In this document: piece by piece, positions 11,238-55,943 of the stretch
Numbering within the stretch: position 1 is the first letter of the stretch
Layout of the letters: every line of letters starts with the position of its first letter
Assembly (NCBI RefSeq): GCF_000423005.1
Contig: NZ_AUHD01000005.1
Span: forward strand, 186,001 to 250,000
Reading direction: 5' to 3'
Origin: Gelidibacter mesophilus DSM 14095
GTDB taxonomy: Bacteria > Bacteroidota > Bacteroidia > Flavobacteriales > Flavobacteriaceae
DNA length: 64,000 nucleotides
Notes under the pieces: model-generated
What the model was told of the DNA's origin: nothing
Seen by the model: the letters and a program-made list of their open reading frames with translations, nothing else
Databases searched by the model: none
Translations under genes and position numbers: made by a program

Positions 11238-11564
11238 TTGAATCTATAGCAATGCTGACTATTCCCTGTATTTGCTGTAGCGGAAGACAATTTTGATGAT
11301 TAGGCGAAAATTTGATCTCGTCTATTGATTTTGATAGAAATTCATAATGAGAAAGAAGTCTGAATTCACTTTTTATTTTTATATATATTAATGCGATTGA
11401 TTTGAAGCAATTTACAATTTCCTTTGTTCGATAAGAGTTTTTTCTTCCATTGGTGCAGACCTTACGGGATTTAACCAAAACTAACTGTTATAAAATTCAA
11501 TATCTTTACACAAATTAATCAAAGAAATCAAGAGTCCAAAATTCGTCATTAGAAAATCAATTAC

Positions 11565-11575: not shown

Positions 11576-13111
11576 ATGCAACATAATAAAGTCCTTATCC
11601 TAGATTTCGGATCGCAATACACACAGCTGATTGCGCGCCGCGTTAGAGAACTCAACATTTATTGTGAGATCTATCCTTTCAACAAAATACCATCAGATAT
11701 TGATAGTTTCAAAGCGGTCATTTTATCTGGAGGACCTTCGTCTGTAAGAGCAGAGAATGCCCCACATCCCGATTTGTCTAAAATTAGAGGTCATATGCCA
11801 TTGTTGGGGGTGTGTTATGGCGCTCAGTATTTGTCGCATTTTTCGGGTGGCTTGGTGGCTCCTTCTGATTCTCGCGAATATGGAAGAGCTAACTTAACCT
11901 ACATTAAGGTTAAGGAACCTTTATTTAATCACATTGATGCAGGTAGTCAAGTGTGGATGAGCCATAGTGATACCATTAAAAAATTGCCATCAAACGGATT
12001 GTTAATTGCCAGTACGAAAGATGTTGAAAACGCTGCGTTTGTAATTGAAGGAGAGCAAACCTACGGAATTCAATTTCATCCTGAAGTCTATCATTCTACT
12101 GACGGCAAGCAACTTTTGGAAAACTTTTTGGTCCATATTGCAAATTTAGAACAGGATTGGACCCCACAATCTTTTGTTGAAGAAACTGTTGAAGCTTTAC
12201 AAGAACAAATTGGTGATGATAAGGTTGTTTTAGGTCTATCTGGTGGCGTGGATTCGTCAGTAGCTGCAATTTTGCTTCATAAAGCTATTGGCACAAATTT
12301 GTATTGCATTTTTGTGAATAATGGTTTACTTCGTAAAAACGAATTTGAAAGTGTACTTTCACAATATGAGGGTATGGGTCTCAATGTAAAAGGTGTTGAT
12401 GCTTCGGCACGTTTTTTGGATGCCCTTGCCGGATTGAGCGATCCCGAATTAAAGCGCAAAGCTATTGGACGTGTGTTTATTGAAGTTTTTGATGATGAAG
12501 CGCATAAAATTAATGATGTGAAATGGTTGGCACAAGGCACTATTTATCCAGATGTTATAGAAAGTGTATCAGCAACGGGAGGCCCAAGTGCCACTATAAA
12601 GAGCCATCATAATGTTGGGGGATTGCCTGATTTTATGAAACTTAAAATTGTAGAACCTTTAAGAGCATTATTTAAAGACGAAGTACGGCGTGTTGGTGCT
12701 TCCATGGAAATGGATGCAGCTATATTGGGACGTCATCCTTTCCCTGGCCCCGGATTGGCCATTCGGATTCTAGGCGATATTACCGCTGAGAAAGTGCGTA
12801 TCCTACAAGAAGTGGATGCCGTATTTATCGACAATCTTAAAGCGTGGAATTTGTACGACAAAGTATGGCAAGCGGGAGCAATTTTATTGCCAGTAAATAG
12901 CGTGGGTGTTATGGGTGATGAGCGAACTTATGAAAAATGTGTCGCCTTAAGAGCCGTAGAAAGCACCGATGGAATGACTGCGGATTGGGTAAATCTACCT
13001 TATGAATTTCTGCAAAAAACCTCCAACGAAATAATAAATAAAGTAAAAGGCGTTAATAGAGTAGTGTATGACATTAGTTCAAAGCCGCCAGCAACGATCG
13101 AATGGGAATAA
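11576..13111 (+). CDS. guaA: GMP synthase (glutamine-hydrolysing)
   Basis: Converts XMP to GMP using ATP and glutamine, the last step of de novo GMP synthesis, in the cytoplasm. 511 residues, the usual length. The N-terminal class I glutamine amidotransferase domain shows the nucleophile C80 (GVCYGAQ) and the triad residues H168 and E170 (FHPE). The ATP pyrophosphatase domain carries the P-loop SGGVDS at 222-227, and the C-terminal dimerisation domain ends in KPPATIEWE, typical of GuaA. A TTG at 11570 is in frame, but it lies inside the -7 box; the ATG at 11576 gives the conserved [17 protein letters not shown] start. Monocistronic as far as seen. Confidence 0.97.
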
Positions 13112-44068: not shown

Positions 44069-45766
44069 TTAGTACCCTACAGCACCGCCGTCCGGACTCG
44101 AAGAATCCGATGCCCCAATAAATACGTCAGCATCGGTAGGAATTAAAATTCCCATTAACCTTCCTAGATTTGTTGTTTCTTTGGTGGTGTGTCCCATGTG
44201 CTCCAATGCTTTTTGGGTATCAGGAGACATTAAATCTTTTTCAAAAGTCAGTTCATTTGGAAACCATTGATGGTGGATCTTCATAACTTCAATGGCTTTT
44301 TTAATAGGCATTTCATATTCAATGACATTCAAAATTGTTTGGAAAACGGTATTAATGATCGTTCTTCCTCCTGGGCTTCCAATTACGAGGTAGGGTTTTC
44401 CGTTTTTGGTGACAATGGTGGGACTCATGCTGCTTAACATTCTTTTTTCTGGTTGGATGATATTTGGATTGGTGCCAATTAACCATCCACTGTTTGTATA
44501 GCCAGGTTGCGGATTAAAATCGCCCATTTCATTATTAAAAATAAATCCAAGTTTTGGCGAACCCAATCCTGAGCCATAAGATTGCTCAAGAGTATAAGTG
44601 AGCGATACGGCATTTCCCGCTTTATCTACTACCGATAGATGCGTGGTGTTTTTACCATCATAAAGCTGTCCAAATTTTAAAGAATCGCTTGGAGAGGCTC
44701 TATTTTGATCAATATTTTGGTAGCGCATTTTAGCAAATTCCTTTGAAGTCAATCGGTCCAATGGCATCTCCAGATTAAAATCGGGGTCGCCCAAGTGTTC
44801 CGCTCTATCCGCAAAAGCGCGACGCATGGTTTCAGCAACCAAATGCACATATGGGGTTGAATTAAAGGCAATAGAGTCTAAATTGGCCTGTTCCATGATG
44901 TTCAACATCTCAATTACGGCAACACCTCCTGAACTTGGTGGTGGCATGGCTACGATGCCATATTCCTTGTAAGTTCCGGTAAGTGCTTTACGTTCTACGG
45001 CTTCATATTTACTCAAATCTTCCAGGGTAATGATCCCACCATTGGCCTTCATGAAATCGGCTATTTCTTTGGCCACACTGCCTTTATAAAACCCGTCTTT
45101 CCCCTTATCTCTAATCAGTTTTAAGGTCTTTGCCAAATTTTTTTGGACCCATACTTCGCCAAATTTGGTCAGTTCACCGTTTGGCTTTTTATAATAATCC
45201 TTTAAGAATTGAGGTTGGGTACTGGTAGCAGAATTGAAATTCTTTGCATGTTCTGAAAGAGCGTAAGAAAGCACCACACCTTTTTCAGCTAAATCTACTG
45301 ACGGCTGCACCAAATCCTTCCAAGGCAGAACGCCATATTTTTCATGCGCCAAATATAATCCGGCAACAGTGCCTGGAACACCAACGGACTTCAGACCTTG
45401 ATGATTGCTGCCAGGAATTAAATTTCCAGAATCATCTAAATACATGCCTGCAGTAGCAAGCAACGGCGCTTTTTCTCTAAAATCGATGGTTGTGGAAGTG
45501 CCTGTAAGATCTGAATAAACAAGGAATCCGCCGCCACCGATGTTTCCTGCTTGTGGATGCGTTACAGCAAGCGCAAATGCGGTAGCAATAGACGCGTCAA
45601 TTGCATTTCCGCCTTTCTTGAGGATTTCAGTGCCAACTTGTGATGCCACGGAATTATCTGAAACCACCATGCCATTTTGAGCATAGGTTTGCGCAAAACT
45701 ATGGTTTGAGAAAATAAATGTCGCTAAAAAAAGAACCAGGATAAAAGAGATTTTAGTTTTTTTCAT
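44069..45766 (-). CDS. ggt: gamma-glutamyltransferase
   Basis: 565 residues from the ATG at 45766, with a signal peptide (about 1-26, NHSFAQ). The enzyme cleaves the gamma-glutamyl bond of glutathione and related peptides and is made as a precursor that cuts itself. The site is seen as TTHLSVVDKAGNAVSLTYT; the nucleophile would be T374, the first of the two threonines. The oxyanion/gamma-glutamate-binding stretch MLSSMSPTIV and GSPGGRTIINTV are present. Periplasmic or secreted. Start chosen at the second Met, which leaves a clean signal peptide. Confidence 0.95.
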   Translation of the reverse strand: MKKTKISFILVLFLATFIFSNHSFAQTYAQNGMVVSDNSVASQVGTEILKKGGNAIDASIATAFALAVTHPQAGNIGGGGFLVYSDLTGTSTTIDFREKAPLLATAGMYLDDSGNLIPGSNHQGLKSVGVPGTVAGLYLAHEKYGVLPWKDLVQPSVDLAEKGVVLSYALSEHAKNFNSATSTQPQFLKDYYKKPNGELTKFGEVWVQKNLAKTLKLIRDKGKDGFYKGSVAKEIADFMKANGGIITLEDLSKYEAVERKALTGTYKEYGIVAMPPPSSGGVAVIEMLNIMEQANLDSIAFNSTPYVHLVAETMRRAFADRAEHLGDPDFNLEMPLDRLTSKEFAKMRYQNIDQNRASPSDSLKFGQLYDGKNTTHLSVVDKAGNAVSLTYTLEQSYGSGLGSPKLGFIFNNEMGDFNPQPGYTNSGWLIGTNPNIIQPEKRMLSSMSPTIVTKNGKPYLVIGSPGGRTIINTVFQTILNVIEYEMPIKKAIEVMKIHHQWFPNELTFEKDLMSPDTQKALEHMGHTTKETTNLGRLMGILIPTDADVFIGASDSSSPDGGAVGY

Positions 45767-45913
45767 AATGCTGTTTATATGTTGCAATGGAGTGTGTGTT
45801 GAATTATATTCAAACTCCTAATTTAGGAAATAATTATTCCAATATATAGTTTTTGTGACAATGTTGATGTCAGTGCTTGTATAATTACAATATGGGAGGT
45901 AATAAATGCATTT

Positions 45914-46954
45914 CTAATTCAATTTAAAAACAGCCATCACATTTTTATGATCCGTGGGCCAAATGCCTTCGGGCGTTTCAATAGGATCGTCAGAGGTTTC
46001 CAATTGGCGTTTGTTACCCACAATAGAGCCTTTAGGACCGATGATTTTAACCTCTATAAGTTCTAGTTCTTTGGATGGCAAATAAAAAATATAATCAATC
46101 CGATCTCTGTCGTCAGCATCTGGCGCCCAGGCTAATTTTTCAAGAGGCACCAAAGGGGTGTCGGCTGGAAAAGTAAATCCTGGATGGCTTACGGGGTCTG
46201 GAAAAAGTTTGCGATAAGCGTCGATAAATCCTGCCTTGTCCAGTTCTAAGGTATTGTGCCAAGGCATCACCACACCGTTATGGTCGTAGAGGTCTTTTGT
46301 GGTTGCTGTCCAGTCTAAAAATGAGGCCTCATTAAGATCGCCACCCAAAATTACAAGTCGGCCTTGTGATTTCTCAACCATGGCATCTGCAATAAATGCG
46401 CTAACGGCTTCATCTCGCATAGAGGCTAAATTATCGGTAGCAATGGTTAAGGAATCAGTAACTATAGTGTCCAGCTTTTTCCAGGTAGAACTGTCATATC
46501 CTCTGGGTAAATAAATACTGCAATGTCTATAATCGAGATGGGCACTATAAAAGGCAATTTCAGCACTTTCGATTTTTAGGACTGCTTTTGTAATAGAGCC
46601 TTGGTCATTTTTTACAGGAAACACTGCTGTTTGGGAAAGAATGGGATAACGCGAAAGAATACCAGAATCTTCACTGCGTTCTGAATAATAGGTATGACCA
46701 CGTTTTTCCAAAGCAGTTACCAATCGTTCTGCCAGACTTTTATTGTCGTAATTTCTTACCTCGCTCAAAGCTATTAGGTCAGCATCGGTGCGAATAACTT
46801 CGTCAATAATCGCATCAAAACCATCGGGAACGATGGTGCCTTCTTGCCAAATATTAAACTGTAATACTTTTAGAGATTGTTCTTGCTGTGCAACACAGCA
46901 AAATGTGAAATACATAAAAAACAAAATAAATAGACAATATGCGTTTCTAGACAT
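45914..46954 (-). CDS. secreted endonuclease/exonuclease/phosphatase (EEP) family protein
   Basis: 346 residues with an N-terminal signal peptide (about 1-22, CVAQQ). The EEP fold is shown by LKVLQFNIWQEG (start), DLIALSEVRNYD, YSAHLDY, VILGGDLNEASF (magnesium ligands) and the end WPTDHKNVMAVF with the catalytic Asp-His pair. The family includes DNases, sphingomyelinases and inositol phosphatases, and the substrate cannot be read from sequence. Export plus an adjacent SusCD locus suggest scavenging of an organic phosphate (inference). Confidence 0.88.
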   Translation of the reverse strand: MSRNAYCLFILFFMYFTFCCVAQQEQSLKVLQFNIWQEGTIVPDGFDAIIDEVIRTDADLIALSEVRNYDNKSLAERLVTALEKRGHTYYSERSEDSGILSRYPILSQTAVFPVKNDQGSITKAVLKIESAEIAFYSAHLDYRHCSIYLPRGYDSSTWKKLDTIVTDSLTIATDNLASMRDEAVSAFIADAMVEKSQGRLVILGGDLNEASFLDWTATTKDLYDHNGVVMPWHNTLELDKAGFIDAYRKLFPDPVSHPGFTFPADTPLVPLEKLAWAPDADDRDRIDYIFYLPSKELELIEVKIIGPKGSIVGNKRQLETSDDPIETPEGIWPTDHKNVMAVFKLN

Positions 46955-48257: not shown

Positions 48258-49754
48258 TTAGTTAGAAGTATTCCACCATAATGGTGTTTTTAAGCGAATT
48301 AAAGGATCGTTTGGAGGCATGTTTAGGTAATTTCGATCTTCCTCGTTATACTCGTACATCATTCCCTGAATCCATTCATCATCACCAGGAAATATGTCAA
48401 GATTGACATTAACTGGTCTTTTTAAACCGGGATAGATCTCATCACTGTAGTCCATTCGTCGCATATCCACCCATGTTTCTGGATTGAGCATATTGGCAAT
48501 ATACTTTTGAACCATGATGGAGGATAAATTGATTTTGGTTGGACCAACTTCTGTATCCAACAAGGCCAAATAAGCAGTCATCTCGCTCGTTGGAACGTTT
48601 AGTTTTTGCATATCAGCCTGAACACCTTCTTTAAATGCAGCATAAGCACCTGGCAAATCATTTTTTCTGAAACGAGCTTCTGCTTCAATAAACTTTACCT
48701 CACTATAGGTAAACATATAAGTAGGTGCGGTTGGACTTGTATAAAATCCGCCGTTTCCTTTTGAATAGTTGTCTCCAGAATCTCCATCCAGTCCACGGCC
48801 TACATCTAGACCAACATAGCCTCCATTAACCGCTTCAGGAACAATAATCGATAATCTAGGATCCTCAACTGCTACTTCTAAATCCAACGGATTTTTCAGA
48901 AGGTTGACAAAAAACGTTGAAAAATATCTGAATCGAGAAGATCCATACCCACCTTCGGCAAATGGTTGTCTTTGGTTTTCAGCTTCACCACCTACAAAGT
49001 CTTGTTGTGCATTTAAAGCATTGGAATTGATTCCAGCTTCGCAGGCTGCAATAATAGCATCGGCGTCATAGGCCATATCTCCTGAAGTTTTCTTACTTAA
49101 GTGATTTAAGTAACGCGCTTTTAAGGATTTTGCGAATCGGATCCACTTTTCTTGATCGCCTTCATAAAGCACATCGCCACTCTCAACATTAAGTCCGATT
49201 GGACTTGAAAGTTGAAGTTCTAAAACAGCTTCGTCCAATAGTCTGAAAATAGTTTTATAAGCTTCTTTTTGAGTCACAAATTTAGGTGTAATGTTCATAT
49301 TGGATTCACCATCATAAGTGTCTTCCGTTACAATATCACCATATTGATCTGTGGTCATCCCAAAAATATAGGCCCGCAATATTTTGCCTACAGCGGTATA
49401 ATTTGGCGCATCATACTTTTTGCCCAATACAATCAAATCGGCCGTATTTGGCAATCCGTACACATAAGCGTTTTGCCATAAAAAGTAGCGCCCGGTAGTA
49501 AAATTGTTGGTCCACGAGTTAGATTCATAGGCAGCTGTGTGATGTGCTGCGTACTGTGTAACCCCTATTATTTCTCTCGCACCTCTATATTGGGCCGTAC
49601 CTGTCGTGTTTTCAATAGCTCCTTGTATTCTGAACTGTGGCGCTAATGAAGTTGTTGTAGGAGCAGTTACTGAACTGTTAACATCAAAGTAGTCTTCACT
49701 ACATGACGTTGCCATTACTGCTAATGCAATGCATGTATATTTTAAAATTTTCAT
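48258..49754 (-). CDS. SusD/RagB-like outer-membrane lipoprotein
   Basis: 498 residues with a lipoprotein signal peptide (lipobox MATSC at about 14-18, followed by SEDYFD, typical of SusD). Sequence features fit the SusD-like_2 branch: TSLAPQFRIQGAIENT, YFLWQNAYVYGLPNTADL, LRAYIFGMTTDQYGDI and a helical TPR-type body, ending with a long loop region. SusD proteins sit on the cell surface and hand substrate to the SusC channel. Starts 12 bp after the susC stop codon, so co-transcribed. Substrate unknown. Confidence 0.93.
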   Translation of the reverse strand: MKILKYTCIALAVMATSCSEDYFDVNSSVTAPTTTSLAPQFRIQGAIENTTGTAQYRGAREIIGVTQYAAHHTAAYESNSWTNNFTTGRYFLWQNAYVYGLPNTADLIVLGKKYDAPNYTAVGKILRAYIFGMTTDQYGDIVTEDTYDGESNMNITPKFVTQKEAYKTIFRLLDEAVLELQLSSPIGLNVESGDVLYEGDQEKWIRFAKSLKARYLNHLSKKTSGDMAYDADAIIAACEAGINSNALNAQQDFVGGEAENQRQPFAEGGYGSSRFRYFSTFFVNLLKNPLDLEVAVEDPRLSIIVPEAVNGGYVGLDVGRGLDGDSGDNYSKGNGGFYTSPTAPTYMFTYSEVKFIEAEARFRKNDLPGAYAAFKEGVQADMQKLNVPTSEMTAYLALLDTEVGPTKINLSSIMVQKYIANMLNPETWVDMRRMDYSDEIYPGLKRPVNVNLDIFPGDDEWIQGMMYEYNEEDRNYLNMPPNDPLIRLKTPLWWNTSN

Positions 49755-49766
49755 AATTGTTATTTT

Positions 49767-52700
49767 TTAAAATCTAAATTTTAAACCAAAATCGATTCCT
49801 TTCACATTCGGAGTTCCAAGATTATCAATGTTCATGGAACCAGCGCCAGCAATACCAGCACCAAATGTATTGACTTCAGGATCTACACCGCTGTAATTGG
49901 TAATCGTAAATAAATTACGGCCAGTTACATAAAGTTCTAAACCGGTTAATGAGAATTTCTCTAAAACATCGGTTGGAAATCTATAGGATAAAGTTACATA
50001 TCTCAGCCTTGTGAATGAACCATCTTCAACGAAATTCTCAGAATTTTGTGAATAATAATTTTGGTAGTAGTTCTGATCTTTTTCTACCGGAACGGTATTC
50101 GTATTTCCGTCGACATCAACGCCTGGCAACACTACCATTTCATTTCTGCCATCAATGGTGTTGGTGCTGAGACCGTAATAGGCCAATGCTGATTCCGTTG
50201 CATTGTAAACATCGCCACCTTGCACGAAGTCCAATAAGAATGACAAGTTGAAGTTTTTATAGCCTACAGAATTCGAAATGCCCAAGGTCCAATCTGGCGA
50301 TCTATTCACGTCATCATAAGTTTGGTCTGTTAATGTTGGCAACCCATTGGAATTGATGATGACATCACCATTTTCATTTTTTACTGGGCGCTTTCCACGC
50401 AATCCAAATAATGAACCATTCAAAATAGCGGCTCCAGCAGCGGAGTTTCTAAACGTCCATGAATCAGAAAGGTAAACTTCAGACAGGAAGCCAGGTAATT
50501 CTTTTACCTTACTTTTATTGGTGCCAAAGTTGAAATCTAAATTCCAATTTACTTTGGAAGTTTTAGGAAGCATTTGTAGTCTTAACATGGCTTCAACACC
50601 GCTGTTGGTAATGGAACCACCATTTAAGGTTGCATAAAATGTTCCTGTAGTTGGCGGGACTCTAATGTCTCTTAAAATTTGATTATCAGAGGTACTGGTG
50701 TAATAAGTGAAATCCAATCCTATGCGGTTTTGAAAAAAACGAATGTCGGTTCCTATCTCAAAACTGTTAGTAAATTCAGGCTCCAGATTAGGGTTTCCAA
50801 CGTTAACCCCATTCCACGTATAAGCTGAACTTGCCAATCCATTGATATTTGTTCCTAAAGAACTTTCTAAGGCTCCAATTGGTGCATCTTTACCAACTTG
50901 GGCCCAAGTAGCTCTTAGTTTAAAATAAGTTAAGCCTTTGTCAGAGGTAATATCATTACCGTAAACTTTGAATAAATCACTGACTACGGCAGACATCCCT
51001 ACAGATGGGTAAAAGAAGGATCTCTTATCCTGTGGAAGGGTTGATGACCAGTCATTTCGCCCGGTTAGGTTTAAAAATACGGCGTTTTTCCAGCCAAATT
51101 TTACTTCTCCAAAAAGCCCTACGATTCTTTTTCTTGTAATCAACTCTGAAATCGTTTGATTTTCTTTAAGGATATTTCCAATACTATAAATTCCAGGTGC
51201 CAGAAATGAGGTACCAGAGGTGTAAGTGGTTCTCACATCGAGTTCTTCAACAGAATTACCGATCATCCCGTCAAAGGAAAAATCTTCAGTGATGTTTTTT
51301 TGATAGGTTAAAAAGATGTTGGAAGTTAAACGTGTATGGTCTTTTTCATATTGACTGATATAACCATCTTCCCTATTTTCTATAAAAGAACCATCTCCTG
51401 TAATTTTCTTATTAAACTCAGTGTAGTTATCCGTTCCTATTTTATAAGATAAATTAAAATCATTTAAGAACTTATAGTTCAGGCTTATAACACCAATTAA
51501 CCGTTTAGTTTCATCGGTATTAGGGCTGTTGTGGACACTCCAATAAGGATTGTCGAATTGTTGGTCTAAAAAAAATGATTTTTGAGAGCCGTCTTCATTT
51601 AAATAATCTTTGGCATTGACATCACCAGGATAGGCCAACAAACTACCAAAGCTACTCCCGGAGGCATTCCCTTGCTTACTGCTGGAAATATCCGTAGTGA
51701 TATAGTTTGCGGAGATGCCAACCGTAAAATTATCGGTAACATTAGAATTCGCATTTACCTTGAATGATGTTTTATCATAACTCGTGCCTTCTATGACCCC
51801 TTTTTGTGATAAGTCGCCAATGGACATATAAATATTACCTTTTTCAGTTCCTGAAGAATAACTCACGTTATGATTTTGGGTGGTGGCCGATTTATAAAAA
51901 TCTTCAATATTATTATATATTGGTGTGCCTGCAGCTATCGGTAATCCAAATGATAACGGCGATTCTGGATCATAAGTGATACCAGCTGTAGTTCTAATTT
52001 GGGCACCTTTCCCATAAGTGGTTTGAACGTCAGGCGTGCCAATAACTTTGTCTGAAGAGATAGAGCCGGAATAGGTAACTGTGCTCACACCAGCTTTTCC
52101 TCTTTTGGTAGTGATGATCACGGCACCACCGGCAGCTTGAATACCGTATAATGCAGCGGCTGCAGGTCCTTTAAGAACAGAAACGCTCTCAATATCTGCA
52201 GGGTTGATGTCAGAAGCCCTGTTGGTGCTTGCTACTTCTAAACTAGAACTCGTAGAGTTGTCAATAGGAATTCCGTCAACCACAAATAAAGGTTGATTGT
52301 TGCCTGTAATAGACGATCCTCCCCGAATTAAAATAATAGAGGAAGAGCCCGGAGCACCACCAGAATTTGTGACCGTCACCCCAGAGACTTTACCCTGAAG
52401 ACCATTAACCATATTGTTCTGGTTACCTTCAAGAAGAGCGTCAGACTCTACAGCCTGTACAGCATAGCCTAATGCACGCTTCTCTTTTTTAATTCCTAAA
52501 GCTGTAATGACCACTTCGTCCAGCACATCACCAGGTTCAAGAGAAACATTCAATGATCCTGTGGAGGGGGCTTTAATTTCTTTGGTCTGATAACCAATAT
52601 AAGAGAATACAAGGGTAGAATTTGCTTCGGCTTCAATAACATAATTGCCATCAAAATCCGTTACGGTGCCCACTGAGGTTCCCTTAATAAGTACACTAGC

Positions 52701-52823
52701 GCCAAGCAAAGGTAAATTGTCGTCGCTTGATTTTACAGTTCCAGTAACTTTTATGCTTTGGGCAAACGCGCTTTGCGCAAAGCATAAAACGACCAGGAAA
52801 TGCATAAAAAATTTTCCTTTCAT
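49767..52823 (-). CDS. SusC/RagA-like TonB-dependent outer-membrane channel
   Basis: 1018 residues. Signal peptide (about 1-21, FAQS), a carboxypeptidase-regulatory-like domain (about 24-105, VTGTVKSSDDNLPLLGASVL), a plug with the family-typical VNGLQGKVSGVTVTNSGG and ILIRGGSSITGNNQPLFVVDG, and a barrel ending KGIDFGLKFRF. It imports a substrate bound by the SusD partner with energy from TonB. It is transcribed away from the DeoR-type regulator, with a 221 bp intergenic region holding the promoter and a phased repeat. Lack of adjacent glycoside hydrolases means this is not a standard polysaccharide utilisation locus. Confidence 0.95.
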   Translation of the reverse strand: MKGKFFMHFLVVLCFAQSAFAQSIKVTGTVKSSDDNLPLLGASVLIKGTSVGTVTDFDGNYVIEAEANSTLVFSYIGYQTKEIKAPSTGSLNVSLEPGDVLDEVVITALGIKKEKRALGYAVQAVESDALLEGNQNNMVNGLQGKVSGVTVTNSGGAPGSSSIILIRGGSSITGNNQPLFVVDGIPIDNSTSSSLEVASTNRASDINPADIESVSVLKGPAAAALYGIQAAGGAVIITTKRGKAGVSTVTYSGSISSDKVIGTPDVQTTYGKGAQIRTTAGITYDPESPLSFGLPIAAGTPIYNNIEDFYKSATTQNHNVSYSSGTEKGNIYMSIGDLSQKGVIEGTSYDKTSFKVNANSNVTDNFTVGISANYITTDISSSKQGNASGSSFGSLLAYPGDVNAKDYLNEDGSQKSFFLDQQFDNPYWSVHNSPNTDETKRLIGVISLNYKFLNDFNLSYKIGTDNYTEFNKKITGDGSFIENREDGYISQYEKDHTRLTSNIFLTYQKNITEDFSFDGMIGNSVEELDVRTTYTSGTSFLAPGIYSIGNILKENQTISELITRKRIVGLFGEVKFGWKNAVFLNLTGRNDWSSTLPQDKRSFFYPSVGMSAVVSDLFKVYGNDITSDKGLTYFKLRATWAQVGKDAPIGALESSLGTNINGLASSAYTWNGVNVGNPNLEPEFTNSFEIGTDIRFFQNRIGLDFTYYTSTSDNQILRDIRVPPTTGTFYATLNGGSITNSGVEAMLRLQMLPKTSKVNWNLDFNFGTNKSKVKELPGFLSEVYLSDSWTFRNSAAGAAILNGSLFGLRGKRPVKNENGDVIINSNGLPTLTDQTYDDVNRSPDWTLGISNSVGYKNFNLSFLLDFVQGGDVYNATESALAYYGLSTNTIDGRNEMVVLPGVDVDGNTNTVPVEKDQNYYQNYYSQNSENFVEDGSFTRLRYVTLSYRFPTDVLEKFSLTGLELYVTGRNLFTITNYSGVDPEVNTFGAGIAGAGSMNIDNLGTPNVKGIDFGLKFRF

Positions 52824-52852
52824 AATAAGTGAGTTTTGATAAAGTTATGTAT

Positions 52853-52860
52853 CAAATATA
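52853..52860 (-). promoter_or_regulatory. -7 promoter box (TATATTTG) of susCD
   Basis: On the - strand TATATTTG fits TAnnTTTG, giving a leader of about 25 nt. No TTG exists at the -33 position; instead the 11 bp repeat block begins 19 bp upstream. Confidence 0.6.
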
Positions 52861-52879
52861 AATGAATATTTTAGAAACC

Positions 52880-52934
52880 GCATAAAATATGCATAAATAA
52901 TGCATCTATTACGCAATAAAAGGGCATTTTGATT
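52880..52934. repeat. five 11-bp phased direct repeats (GCA every 11 bp)
   Basis: GCA occurs at 52880, 52891, 52902, 52913 and 52924, exactly 11 bp apart; units read GCATAAAATAT, GCATAAATAAT, GCATCTATTAC, GCAATAAAAGG and GCATTTTGATT. The first unit occupies the position of the missing -33 element of the susC promoter. All repeats face the same side of the helix, as expected for a protein array. A likely operator for the divergent DeoR-type protein (inference). Confidence 0.75.
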
Positions 52935-53044
52935 AGTTAATCCGTAATTATAAGAGCAAAGACATGCATTTATAAATTGAGATTCTTAAATATTTAAATT
53001 TTATTATTACTTTTCAGAAAATTTGAATAAAAGTTATAGTGTGA

Positions 53045-53794
53045 ATGAAAAAGAATGATAGGCAGCAACTTATAATCGACATGGTAATGTTGCAGCGAAA
53101 AGTGCTTTCTGATCAATTGTCGTTAGAATTAAATGTTTCTGGTGATACCATTAGGAGAGATTTGAATGAATTGGATGACAAGGGCATGTTGACCAAAGTT
53201 CACGGCGGTGCGGTTTCGTCAATTCAAAAATTATTTCACTACAATGAGAATGCTGTTTTTAATAGAGAGAAAAAGAAAATGATTGCTGCTAAGGCTGTTC
53301 CTTTATTAGAAGAAGGCATGGTGGCAATTTTGACTGGGGGTACTACCAATCTCGTATTTGTTAGCAACTTACCGAAAGATTTGAAGGCCACAATTTATAC
53401 GTTTAGCTTAGAGATTGCCTTGCAACTGACCGATCATCCCAATATCGAAACTATTTTTATTGGCGGAAAAATTCGTAAGAAATCAATGGTAGCCATAGGG
53501 ATTGATGTCTTTCAAAATCTATCAAGGGTCCATGCCGATATTTGCTTTATTGGCGCAAGTGGTATTACTTTAAATGAAGGAATTACAGATGAAGGTTATG
53601 AAATTGCGCTAATTAAAAAAGCCATGATTGAGGCTTCAGATAAGGCAATTTCCTTGATCACGTCCAACAAGCTTAGTATAAGGCACAACTACTCTGTCTG
53701 TCCACTTTCTGAAATTGATGTGATTGTGACAGATTTAAATGCCGATAATACACTGTTGGATGCTTATAGAATGGAGGAGCTTTTGATTTTGTAA
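53045..53794 (+). CDS. DeoR/GlpR family transcriptional regulator
   Basis: 249 residues. An N-terminal helix-turn-helix (about 5-58, with SDQLSLELNVSGDTIRRDL and HGGA) and a C-terminal sugar-phosphate-sensing domain (about 75-245; ILTGGTTN, GGKIRKKSM, FIGASGI, SNKLS). DeoR proteins normally repress sugar or nucleoside genes and respond to a phosphorylated sugar. Divergent from susC, so it is the natural regulator of susCD and of itself. The sugar is not known. Confidence 0.93.
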   Translation: MKKNDRQQLIIDMVMLQRKVLSDQLSLELNVSGDTIRRDLNELDDKGMLTKVHGGAVSSIQKLFHYNENAVFNREKKKMIAAKAVPLLEEGMVAILTGGTTNLVFVSNLPKDLKATIYTFSLEIALQLTDHPNIETIFIGGKIRKKSMVAIGIDVFQNLSRVHADICFIGASGITLNEGITDEGYEIALIKKAMIEASDKAISLITSNKLSIRHNYSVCPLSEIDVIVTDLNADNTLLDAYRMEELLIL

Positions 53795-55103: not shown

Positions 55104-55943
55104 TTATTTCAGGAGATTCAATCTTTTAAAAGCAAGAAGTGTTAAATCTGACCTTTGTTTTATAAATAAATCAACATCAAATTCTTCTTGAGGTTCCAAA
55201 TTTGTGGCAAATATATAAGTGGTGCTCTTTATTTCAATATATCCAACAAACCACCCATTGTAGTGTCCATTCTCATTTGAAAGCCCCGTTTTTCCGCTGA
55301 GTTTATATTGGTCAGTTTCCTCAATACGCATAATATGTTTCATTATTTTTTCTGTTCTTCCCGCAATTGGAAGTTCAGAGTTGTAGAGTCTTTTCAAGAA
55401 GTCGATTTGTTGCATTTGGCTAATTCGGGATTGGCCAACCAACCAGAATGTGTCAATATGTAGTGCGTCGATTGTTAAGTTTCCGTAGTTTAATTTATCA
55501 ACGTAATTATTCATCCGTTTAACGCCTATTTCTCTGGCTACTTCTTGATAGCAAGGTACACACGACCACTGAAAAGCGTTTTTCAAAACTAAATCCTGTT
55601 CCCAGTTTTTTGACCATTTCTTTTCCCCATCCCATTTGAAGATAGTGCTGTCACTTTCAATCACACCGGTTTCAACACCTATAATTGAATTAGGGATTTT
55701 AAACGTTGAGGCTGGCAAATGTCCCATACTTGCCCATTTAAAGTCATTTGAATAATAGCGATCCTCGTTTAAATCATAAATTAAAATGGAACCTGCAACT
55801 TTAGAAGAGTCAAGGATGGCTTGCAATTCTGGTTTCAGGATATGCGTTTTGACGGAATTATCGATGTTTAAAGGTTCTGCTTCTTGCTTTTCTTTGCAAG
55901 AAATCAATAGGGCTAGAAGCACGATTAGTGTTGTTAAACGCAT
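55104..55943 (-). CDS. class D beta-lactamase (OXA-like) lipoprotein
   Basis: 279 residues. Signal peptide with a lipobox LLISC (12-16). All class D motifs are present in order: S79-T-F-K82 (STFK), S127-C-V129 (the SxV motif), Y153-G-N155 (YGN) and K218-T-G220 (KTG), with W167 in the usual position near WLVG. This pattern indicates a functional serine beta-lactamase with K82 as the carbamylated lysine. Unlike most OXA enzymes it is a lipoprotein. Its spectrum cannot be inferred. Not flanked by insertion sequences or integron parts, so it looks like an intrinsic gene. Confidence 0.92.
   Translation of the reverse strand: MRLTTLIVLLALLISCKEKQEAEPLNIDNSVKTHILKPELQAILDSSKVAGSILIYDLNEDRYYSNDFKWASMGHLPASTFKIPNSIIGVETGVIESDSTIFKWDGEKKWSKNWEQDLVLKNAFQWSCVPCYQEVAREIGVKRMNNYVDKLNYGNLTIDALHIDTFWLVGQSRISQMQQIDFLKRLYNSELPIAGRTEKIMKHIMRIEETDQYKLSGKTGLSNENGHYNGWFVGYIEIKSTTYIFATNLEPQEEFDVDLFIKQRSDLTLLAFKRLNLLK

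Follow-up and report, generated by a model that had tools for sequence, protein, structure and literature searches.

Operators built from short direct repeats have been described for DeoR-family regulators before. The motifs of RhaR, a DeoR-family protein that occurs in Chloroflexus aurantiacus as well as in other lineages, are direct repeats of 10-11 bp, and the passages that deal with its binding report that four tandem sites are bound in gel shift experiments, that L-rhamnulose releases the protein and that the authors term it a repressor (PMC3870299). For Caldicellulosiruptor bescii, the passages on LacI and DeoR sites place them over promoters or 5' UTRs and interpret them as repressor sites (PMC8579813).

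We analyzed a 64,000-nucleotide stretch of DNA from Gelidibacter mesophilus DSM 14095 (the window), in which a DeoR-family regulator gene and susC diverge from an intergenic region that carries a helically phased array of GCA boxes. The operator of Bacillus subtilis IolR, another DeoR-family member, resembles this array in being made of tandem direct repeats, there of an 11-mer, and differs from it in word and genes. With the RhaR operators, as far as the passages on them go, the array shares the protein family, the imperfect 10-11 bp direct repeats and the position beside the regulator gene, RhaR having four tandem sites upstream of its own; it differs from them in its word (TGCA/GCA here, TCGAAA there) and in its genes, RhaR going with rhamnose genes and no SusCD in that account, whose passages do not describe sites in fixed register to a Bacteroidetes -7 box (PMC3870299). 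With the DeoR-type sites of C. bescii it has the overlap with promoter elements in common (there also 5' UTRs), and with the site of AxgR, a protein assigned to the DeoR family in one passage and to AraC in another, the tandem repetition; those sites, in contrast, belong to Firmicute promoters and to other genes (PMC8579813). Since DeoR operators made of 10-11 bp direct repeats are already in print, what we describe is a known type of control on a new gene set and, therefore, a new DeoR regulon. In a limited survey of the literature we recognized no DeoR operator beside SusC, NamZ or NagX in Flavobacteriaceae, nor did we recognize the TGC/GCA word, the SusCD/NagX/NamZ targets or the -7 register. 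The register between TGC/GCA boxes and the -7 box would provide a readable cis-code for the SusCD loci and murein amino-sugar loci of Flavobacteriaceae, which predicts targets directly.

The intergenic region (52824-53044) has susC on the minus strand on one side and the regulator gene on the plus strand on the other. susC (49767..52823), the presumed target, encodes a SusC/RagA TonB-linked outer membrane protein of 1018 aa (TIGR04056, 6.7e-200) and is followed on the minus strand by the gene for a susD-like lipoprotein (48258..49754, PF12771), gene 2 of the presumed operon. The regulator (53045..53794, plus strand, 249 aa) belongs to the DeoR family by its HTH_DeoR domain (PF08220, 1.6e-15; 57.0 bits, cut-off 21) and its DeoRC domain (PF00455, 3.4e-39; 134.8 bits, cut-off 31.8). 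It stays below the cut-off of all 10 NCBIfam models that it matches (GlpR, SrlR, AgaR, UlaR, FucR and others; best score 149.5, cut-off 300), four of which name a repressor and one an activator, the other five being neutral.

Five GCA boxes at 52880, 52891, 52902, 52913 and 52924 form the core of the array (52880..52926, no strand assigned). As the preliminary description stated, they are all present and exactly 11 bp apart, the first lies exactly 19 bp from the susC -7 box at 52853-52860, and the units are A/T-rich and mostly GCAT (4/5, the fifth being GCAA). The 4.43 Mb genome contains this five-fold pattern a single time and its reversed control not at all. Dinucleotide shuffles of 52824-53044 never reproduce such a run (0/2000), a run being defined as at least four copies of a trinucleotide with at least two G/C at one fixed period between 4 and 30 bp, and GCA at 11 bp is the sole run of this kind in the real region. 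The array extends beyond the five boxes first noted, as a pair at 52956 and 52966 is also in phase: all seven intergenic GCAs share a common 10.75-bp phase (R 0.977), which 0/5000 random placements reproduce. When the window is scanned for phased clusters, the GCA array comes out on top with a score of 5.25; the second scores 2.8 and lies within coding DNA.

A search of nine genomes of the genus, including our own, finds a DeoR relative in all nine and an ortholog of the regulator in four. The orthologs of G003, G008 and G006 are 83%, 82% and 78% identical to that of the window, and in all three genomes a divergent susC (about 85-88% identity) stands beside deoR and is followed, as judged by eye, by an ORF of 498-499 aa with a start like that of the susD-like gene. 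In the alignment of the four loci, boxes 1, 2, 4 and 5 keep their GCA unchanged in 4/4, most adjacent intergenic and spacer columns being variable, and the susC -7 box together with its 19-bp distance to box 1 is likewise identical in 4/4. Thus the phasing, for which the preliminary description had looked to such an alignment, is kept in 3/3 orthologous loci, and it recurs in paralogous ones. Box 3 (52902), however, is intact in the window only. The five repeats that had been claimed do exist there, but to treat them as five equal units is too strong, because the middle one is dispensable in three orthologs. The 0/11/33/44 pattern of boxes 1, 2, 4 and 5 adjoins deoR in all four ortholog-bearing genomes of the nine. 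It has three more matches (in G003 and G004, both less A/T-rich, and as the other-strand reading of the array in G008), and since its reversed control also matches three times in the nine genomes, the pattern alone has background.

The predicted susC -7 box, CAAATATA at 52853..52860 on the minus strand, where it reads TATATTTG, agrees with the flavobacterial sigma-A consensus TAnnTTTG, which in the passages on F. psychrophilum spans -12 to -5 (PMC9723704). If the susC -7 box takes these same positions, the row of GCA boxes begins at -33. Its first base lies 37 nt before the susC ATG. All -7 boxes in this analysis are consensus matches, and the susC promoter itself is read from the sequence. 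Among 35 upstream regions of relatives, 300 bp each, 21 have one CAAAnnTA -7 box for the divergent gene, while 14 are without one. A TGC/GCA box lies at 19 or 20 bp from 16/21 of these target boxes; at the remaining five, the TGC/GCA nearest that place is found at 17, 21, 22 or 24 bp. The control, drawn from 464 kb of the own genome, consists of 82 TAnnTTTG boxes that precede ORFs (83 minus the window's own susC); six of them have a box at 19 or 20 bp.

Entire rows of boxes were scored by a lattice test. It demands boxes in at least three of the spacer groups 19-20, 30-31, 40-42 and 51-52 bp, the first group being obligatory, counted from a -7 box within 130 bp of the start codon; its genes are mechanical ORFs of at least 100 aa, spurious ones included. 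In loci of the DeoR subfamily the lattice is found at 15/21 susC, 7/12 nagX, 4/26 deoR and 1/316 other ORFs, and this sole match among the other ORFs is a NamZ gene. Control stretches of the own genome yield 1/357 other ORFs and 0/1 susC, and none of the 82 control -7 boxes is accompanied by as many as three lattice boxes. ORFs that have a -7-like box at no more than 130 bp number 19 for susC, 9 for nagX, 20 for deoR and 128 for the others, compared to 129 others in the control. Shuffled susC upstream regions give a mean of 0.024 and a maximum of 1/21. The 15 lattice susC promoters span six genera by genus code; related genomes are not independent, and the geometry may have spread partly through duplications of deoR that included its upstream region. 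The spacer groups were picked after the single-box test, which for target genes saw only TTTG-ending boxes upstream of deoR. At 11/15 lattice susC promoters, all of them paralogous, the -7 box ends in A rather than G; scored on TTTA-ending boxes, these eleven therefore fall outside the choice of spacer groups. The lattice entry of L041 names a TTTA box too, yet its TATATTTG also qualifies. Allowing TTTA gives more opportunities for a match, and the control stretches were scored identically. The strict lattice is missing from 6/21 susC, 5/12 nagX and 22/26 deoR genes, the window's deoR among the latter; by eye, the non-lattice susC genes of L046, L111, L114 and L116 do have TGC/GCA boxes, at another distance or with a degenerate box. 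Because TGC/GCA boxes keep a recurrent distance to the -7 box, singly as well as in the lattice, we follow the preliminary description in placing box 1 at the -33 site. At 19 bp it overlaps the elements of the promoter predicted for susC, as tandem-repeat DeoR operators overlap those of their targets.

TTG at -33 is an element of the flavobacterial sigma-A promoter, and none is found at this place upstream of susC, as had been noted. To read its absence as a special sign was mistaken, since most sampled TAnnTTTG boxes are also without TTG: it occurs at spacers 17-22 of 0/27 boxes in the window and six loci (shuffled mean 2.3; the four orthologous susC promoters are included in this sample), and at spacers 19, 20 and 21 of only 4, 1 and 6 among the 82 own-genome boxes. 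The missing TTG is therefore ordinary, and the unusual feature is a TGC box that takes the -33 place and whose distance recurs. Around the 82 own-genome boxes, TGC itself is found 2, 3, 1 and 2 times at spacers 18, 19, 20 and 21. A stricter set of 70 boxes has it 6 times at spacers 18-21 and 4 times each at spacers 6-9 and 10-13; a TGC variant of the -33 element is therefore no more than a weak hint.

A wider family search covered 397 genomes at E 1e-70 and found relatives in 22. In 31 non-orthologous upstream regions, each 170 bp long, two GCAs lie 10, 11, 21, 22, 32 or 33 bp apart 68 times, compared to three times for six out-of-phase distances, where shuffling leads one to expect 6.1 and 5.7, respectively. 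A GCA pair at 10 or 11 bp is present in 20/31 of them (shuffles average 2.1). L005, which duplicates the locus L002 (the G008 contig), was excluded from this sample and from the single-box spacing sample, as were the GlpR-like L017-L019. In a phased-cluster scan of six related loci, every match is intergenic and beside deoR or susC, with arrays in L041, L042, L043 and L044 and none, at the threshold of the scan, in L045 or L046. L118, from another genus, has the layout of the window, namely five boxes 11 bp apart, with 19 bp between the first and a -7 box TATATTTA. By eye, some paralogous susC promoters contain an inverted pair AAACACGCA...TGCGTGTTT, or something near it, with a central box; the boxes could therefore be direct repeats of the self-complementary TGCA or half-sites of nested dyads. 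The recognition-helix stretch SxDT[IV]RRD is found in 35/35 relatives among the matches listed, whereas the three GlpR-like paralogs have SAVTIRKD in its place. Like the window, two paralogs of this GlpR-like group in the genus (L017, L019) combine a repeated word with one-turn and two-turn phasing, GAAAC occurring at -100, -90 and -70 relative to the start of the match (10- and 20-bp steps); unlike the window, they have another word and another recognition helix. No GAAAC is found upstream of the third, L018. The gene divergent from L017 looks like glpD by eye.

The own genome has a paralogous deoR-susCD-NamZ locus (L044, G000:C1:692000-711000) with arrays at 11367-11455 and 12111-12145, before deoR and before susC; the 870 bp between its two genes give no NagX match at E 0.01. 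Several paralogs adjoin a NagX-like gene, one of which was scanned and reaches 164 bits with NF046061, below the cut-off of 480; L110 (G003) has NagX fragments only. NamZ (PF07075) is found in the paralogous loci L044, L046 and L115. These NagX-like and NamZ neighbors point to murein amino sugars. TGCA-N6/7-TGCA was also tried for finding regulon members in the own genome, where it gives 49 and 37 sites per strand; as reversed controls yield 29 and 24, it is too unspecific for a regulon list. Some of these pairs lie in the own paralogous locus.

Judging from these features, the array is very probably the operator of a DeoR-family regulator that switches import genes. We propose that 52880-52968 serves the adjacent regulator at 53045-53794, which would line up on the TGC/GCA boxes along one face of the DNA, neighboring protomers being one helical turn apart. 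Since the boxes lie on one side of the helix and share their word with paralogs that have a near-identical recognition helix, cooperative binding of DeoR would be the simplest account, and repeats of 10-11 bp period that adjoin the regulator gene are what tandem direct-repeat DeoR operators look like. The multimeric, helically phased site that had been suggested beside a DeoR-type regulator is thus supported by the two Pfam domains and the conserved phasing. What is observed comprises the array and its conservation, the link to the DeoR subfamily and the recurrent -7 register; for the window's DeoR we infer binding, repression and a ligand. With some reserve, we favor a cooperative operator that most likely represses susCD until a ligand releases the protein. 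In the absence of inducer, DeoR would most likely fill -33 to about -78 and exclude RNA polymerase from susCD, and a sugar or sugar phosphate in the DeoRC domain would release it. Competition between the protein and sigma for -33 would explain the fixed distance by itself.

The same geometry could belong to an activator, a reading that we regard as possible yet rather doubtful: DeoR, bound at -33 and upstream in class II geometry, would replace the -33 element and, together with its ligand, hold RNA polymerase on susC. Activator sites often lie, like these rows of boxes, at a recurrent distance on the upstream side of the -7 box, and both the box at 19 or 20 bp (16/21 target boxes, 6/82 controls) and the lattice at 15/21 susC promoters fit this. 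The A-ending -7 boxes of the 11 paralogous lattice promoters could mean weak cores that need help, and the activator among the matched NCBIfam models is that of the L-fucose operon (E 1.2e-24, below its cut-off). However, a fixed register is also expected if the protein and sigma compete for the -33 bases, the window's susC -7 box is fully consensus, and the tandem DeoR operators in the passages of the literature considered here are repressor sites (PMC3870299, PMC8579813). The preliminary description had seen a pointer to an activator in the phasing, but since 10-11 bp DeoR direct repeats are known, including one bound by a named repressor, phasing alone is no argument for it. We are slightly more skeptical of the general proposal that a DeoR-type protein acts as a surrogate -33 element in Flavobacteriaceae and recruits RNA polymerase to susCD, to nagX and sometimes to its own gene, and hold the same doubt about its corollary that, for this purpose, the TGCA boxes keep locked distances of 19-20, 30-31, 41 and 52 bp to the -7 box. 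If true, it would give SusCD loci a class of activator that departs from the repressor function usual in the DeoR family.

The own paralogous DeoR (G000:C1, 60% identical) might read the array mainly or in addition, which would put susCD into a murein amino-sugar regulon: the two systems share word and phasing, their recognition helices are similar, and the paralogous locus has NamZ and those of its relatives also NagX. We consider this unlikely, as the array adjoins its own DeoR in 4/4 orthologous loci, and box flanks and array types are unlike between the two groups by eye. That the GCAs merely punctuate phased A-tracts, which would form an intrinsically bent upstream element, is very improbable, even though the units are in helical phase and rich in A/T. 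Among the lattice susC promoters, an A4 or T4 tract is present in only 16/31 spacers between boxes, and it is the letters of four boxes that are kept in the orthologs, most spacer letters being variable. Finally, the loss of box 3 from the orthologs would suit a chance periodicity, but this we hold to be hardly conceivable and reject: the single occurrence in the genome, the 0/2000 shuffles, the 0/5000 placements, the lattice shuffles, the conservation of the pattern in four genomes and the same layout in another genus all speak against it.

The pair at 52956 and 52966 (52956..52968, no strand assigned), with its 10-bp step, is possibly meant for deoR and may damp this gene itself; G003 has the pair, G008 and G006 do not. 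A weak candidate for a deoR -7 box, TACTTTTC at 53008..53015 on the plus strand, was read by hand and has the same letters in G003. The pair lies 50 and 40 bp upstream of it, near the 41/51 register seen elsewhere at some promoters of nagX and deoR. In the strict test no -7-like box is found for the window's deoR. Autoregulation of deoR in the window is thus possible, and the case for it is weak because the strict lattice is absent there.

Downstream of susCD the window contains genes for a gamma-glutamyltransferase and an endonuclease/exonuclease/phosphatase-family protein (44069-46954, minus strand). By eye, one or the other again adjoins susCD in G008 and G006, and neither does in G003; this gives a hint as to the substrate. 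On the other side of the regulator gene, 55104-55943 on the minus strand encodes a small protein that looks like a lipoprotein, carries a penicillin-binding transpeptidase domain (PF00905) and, by its STFK motif, resembles a class D beta-lactamase.
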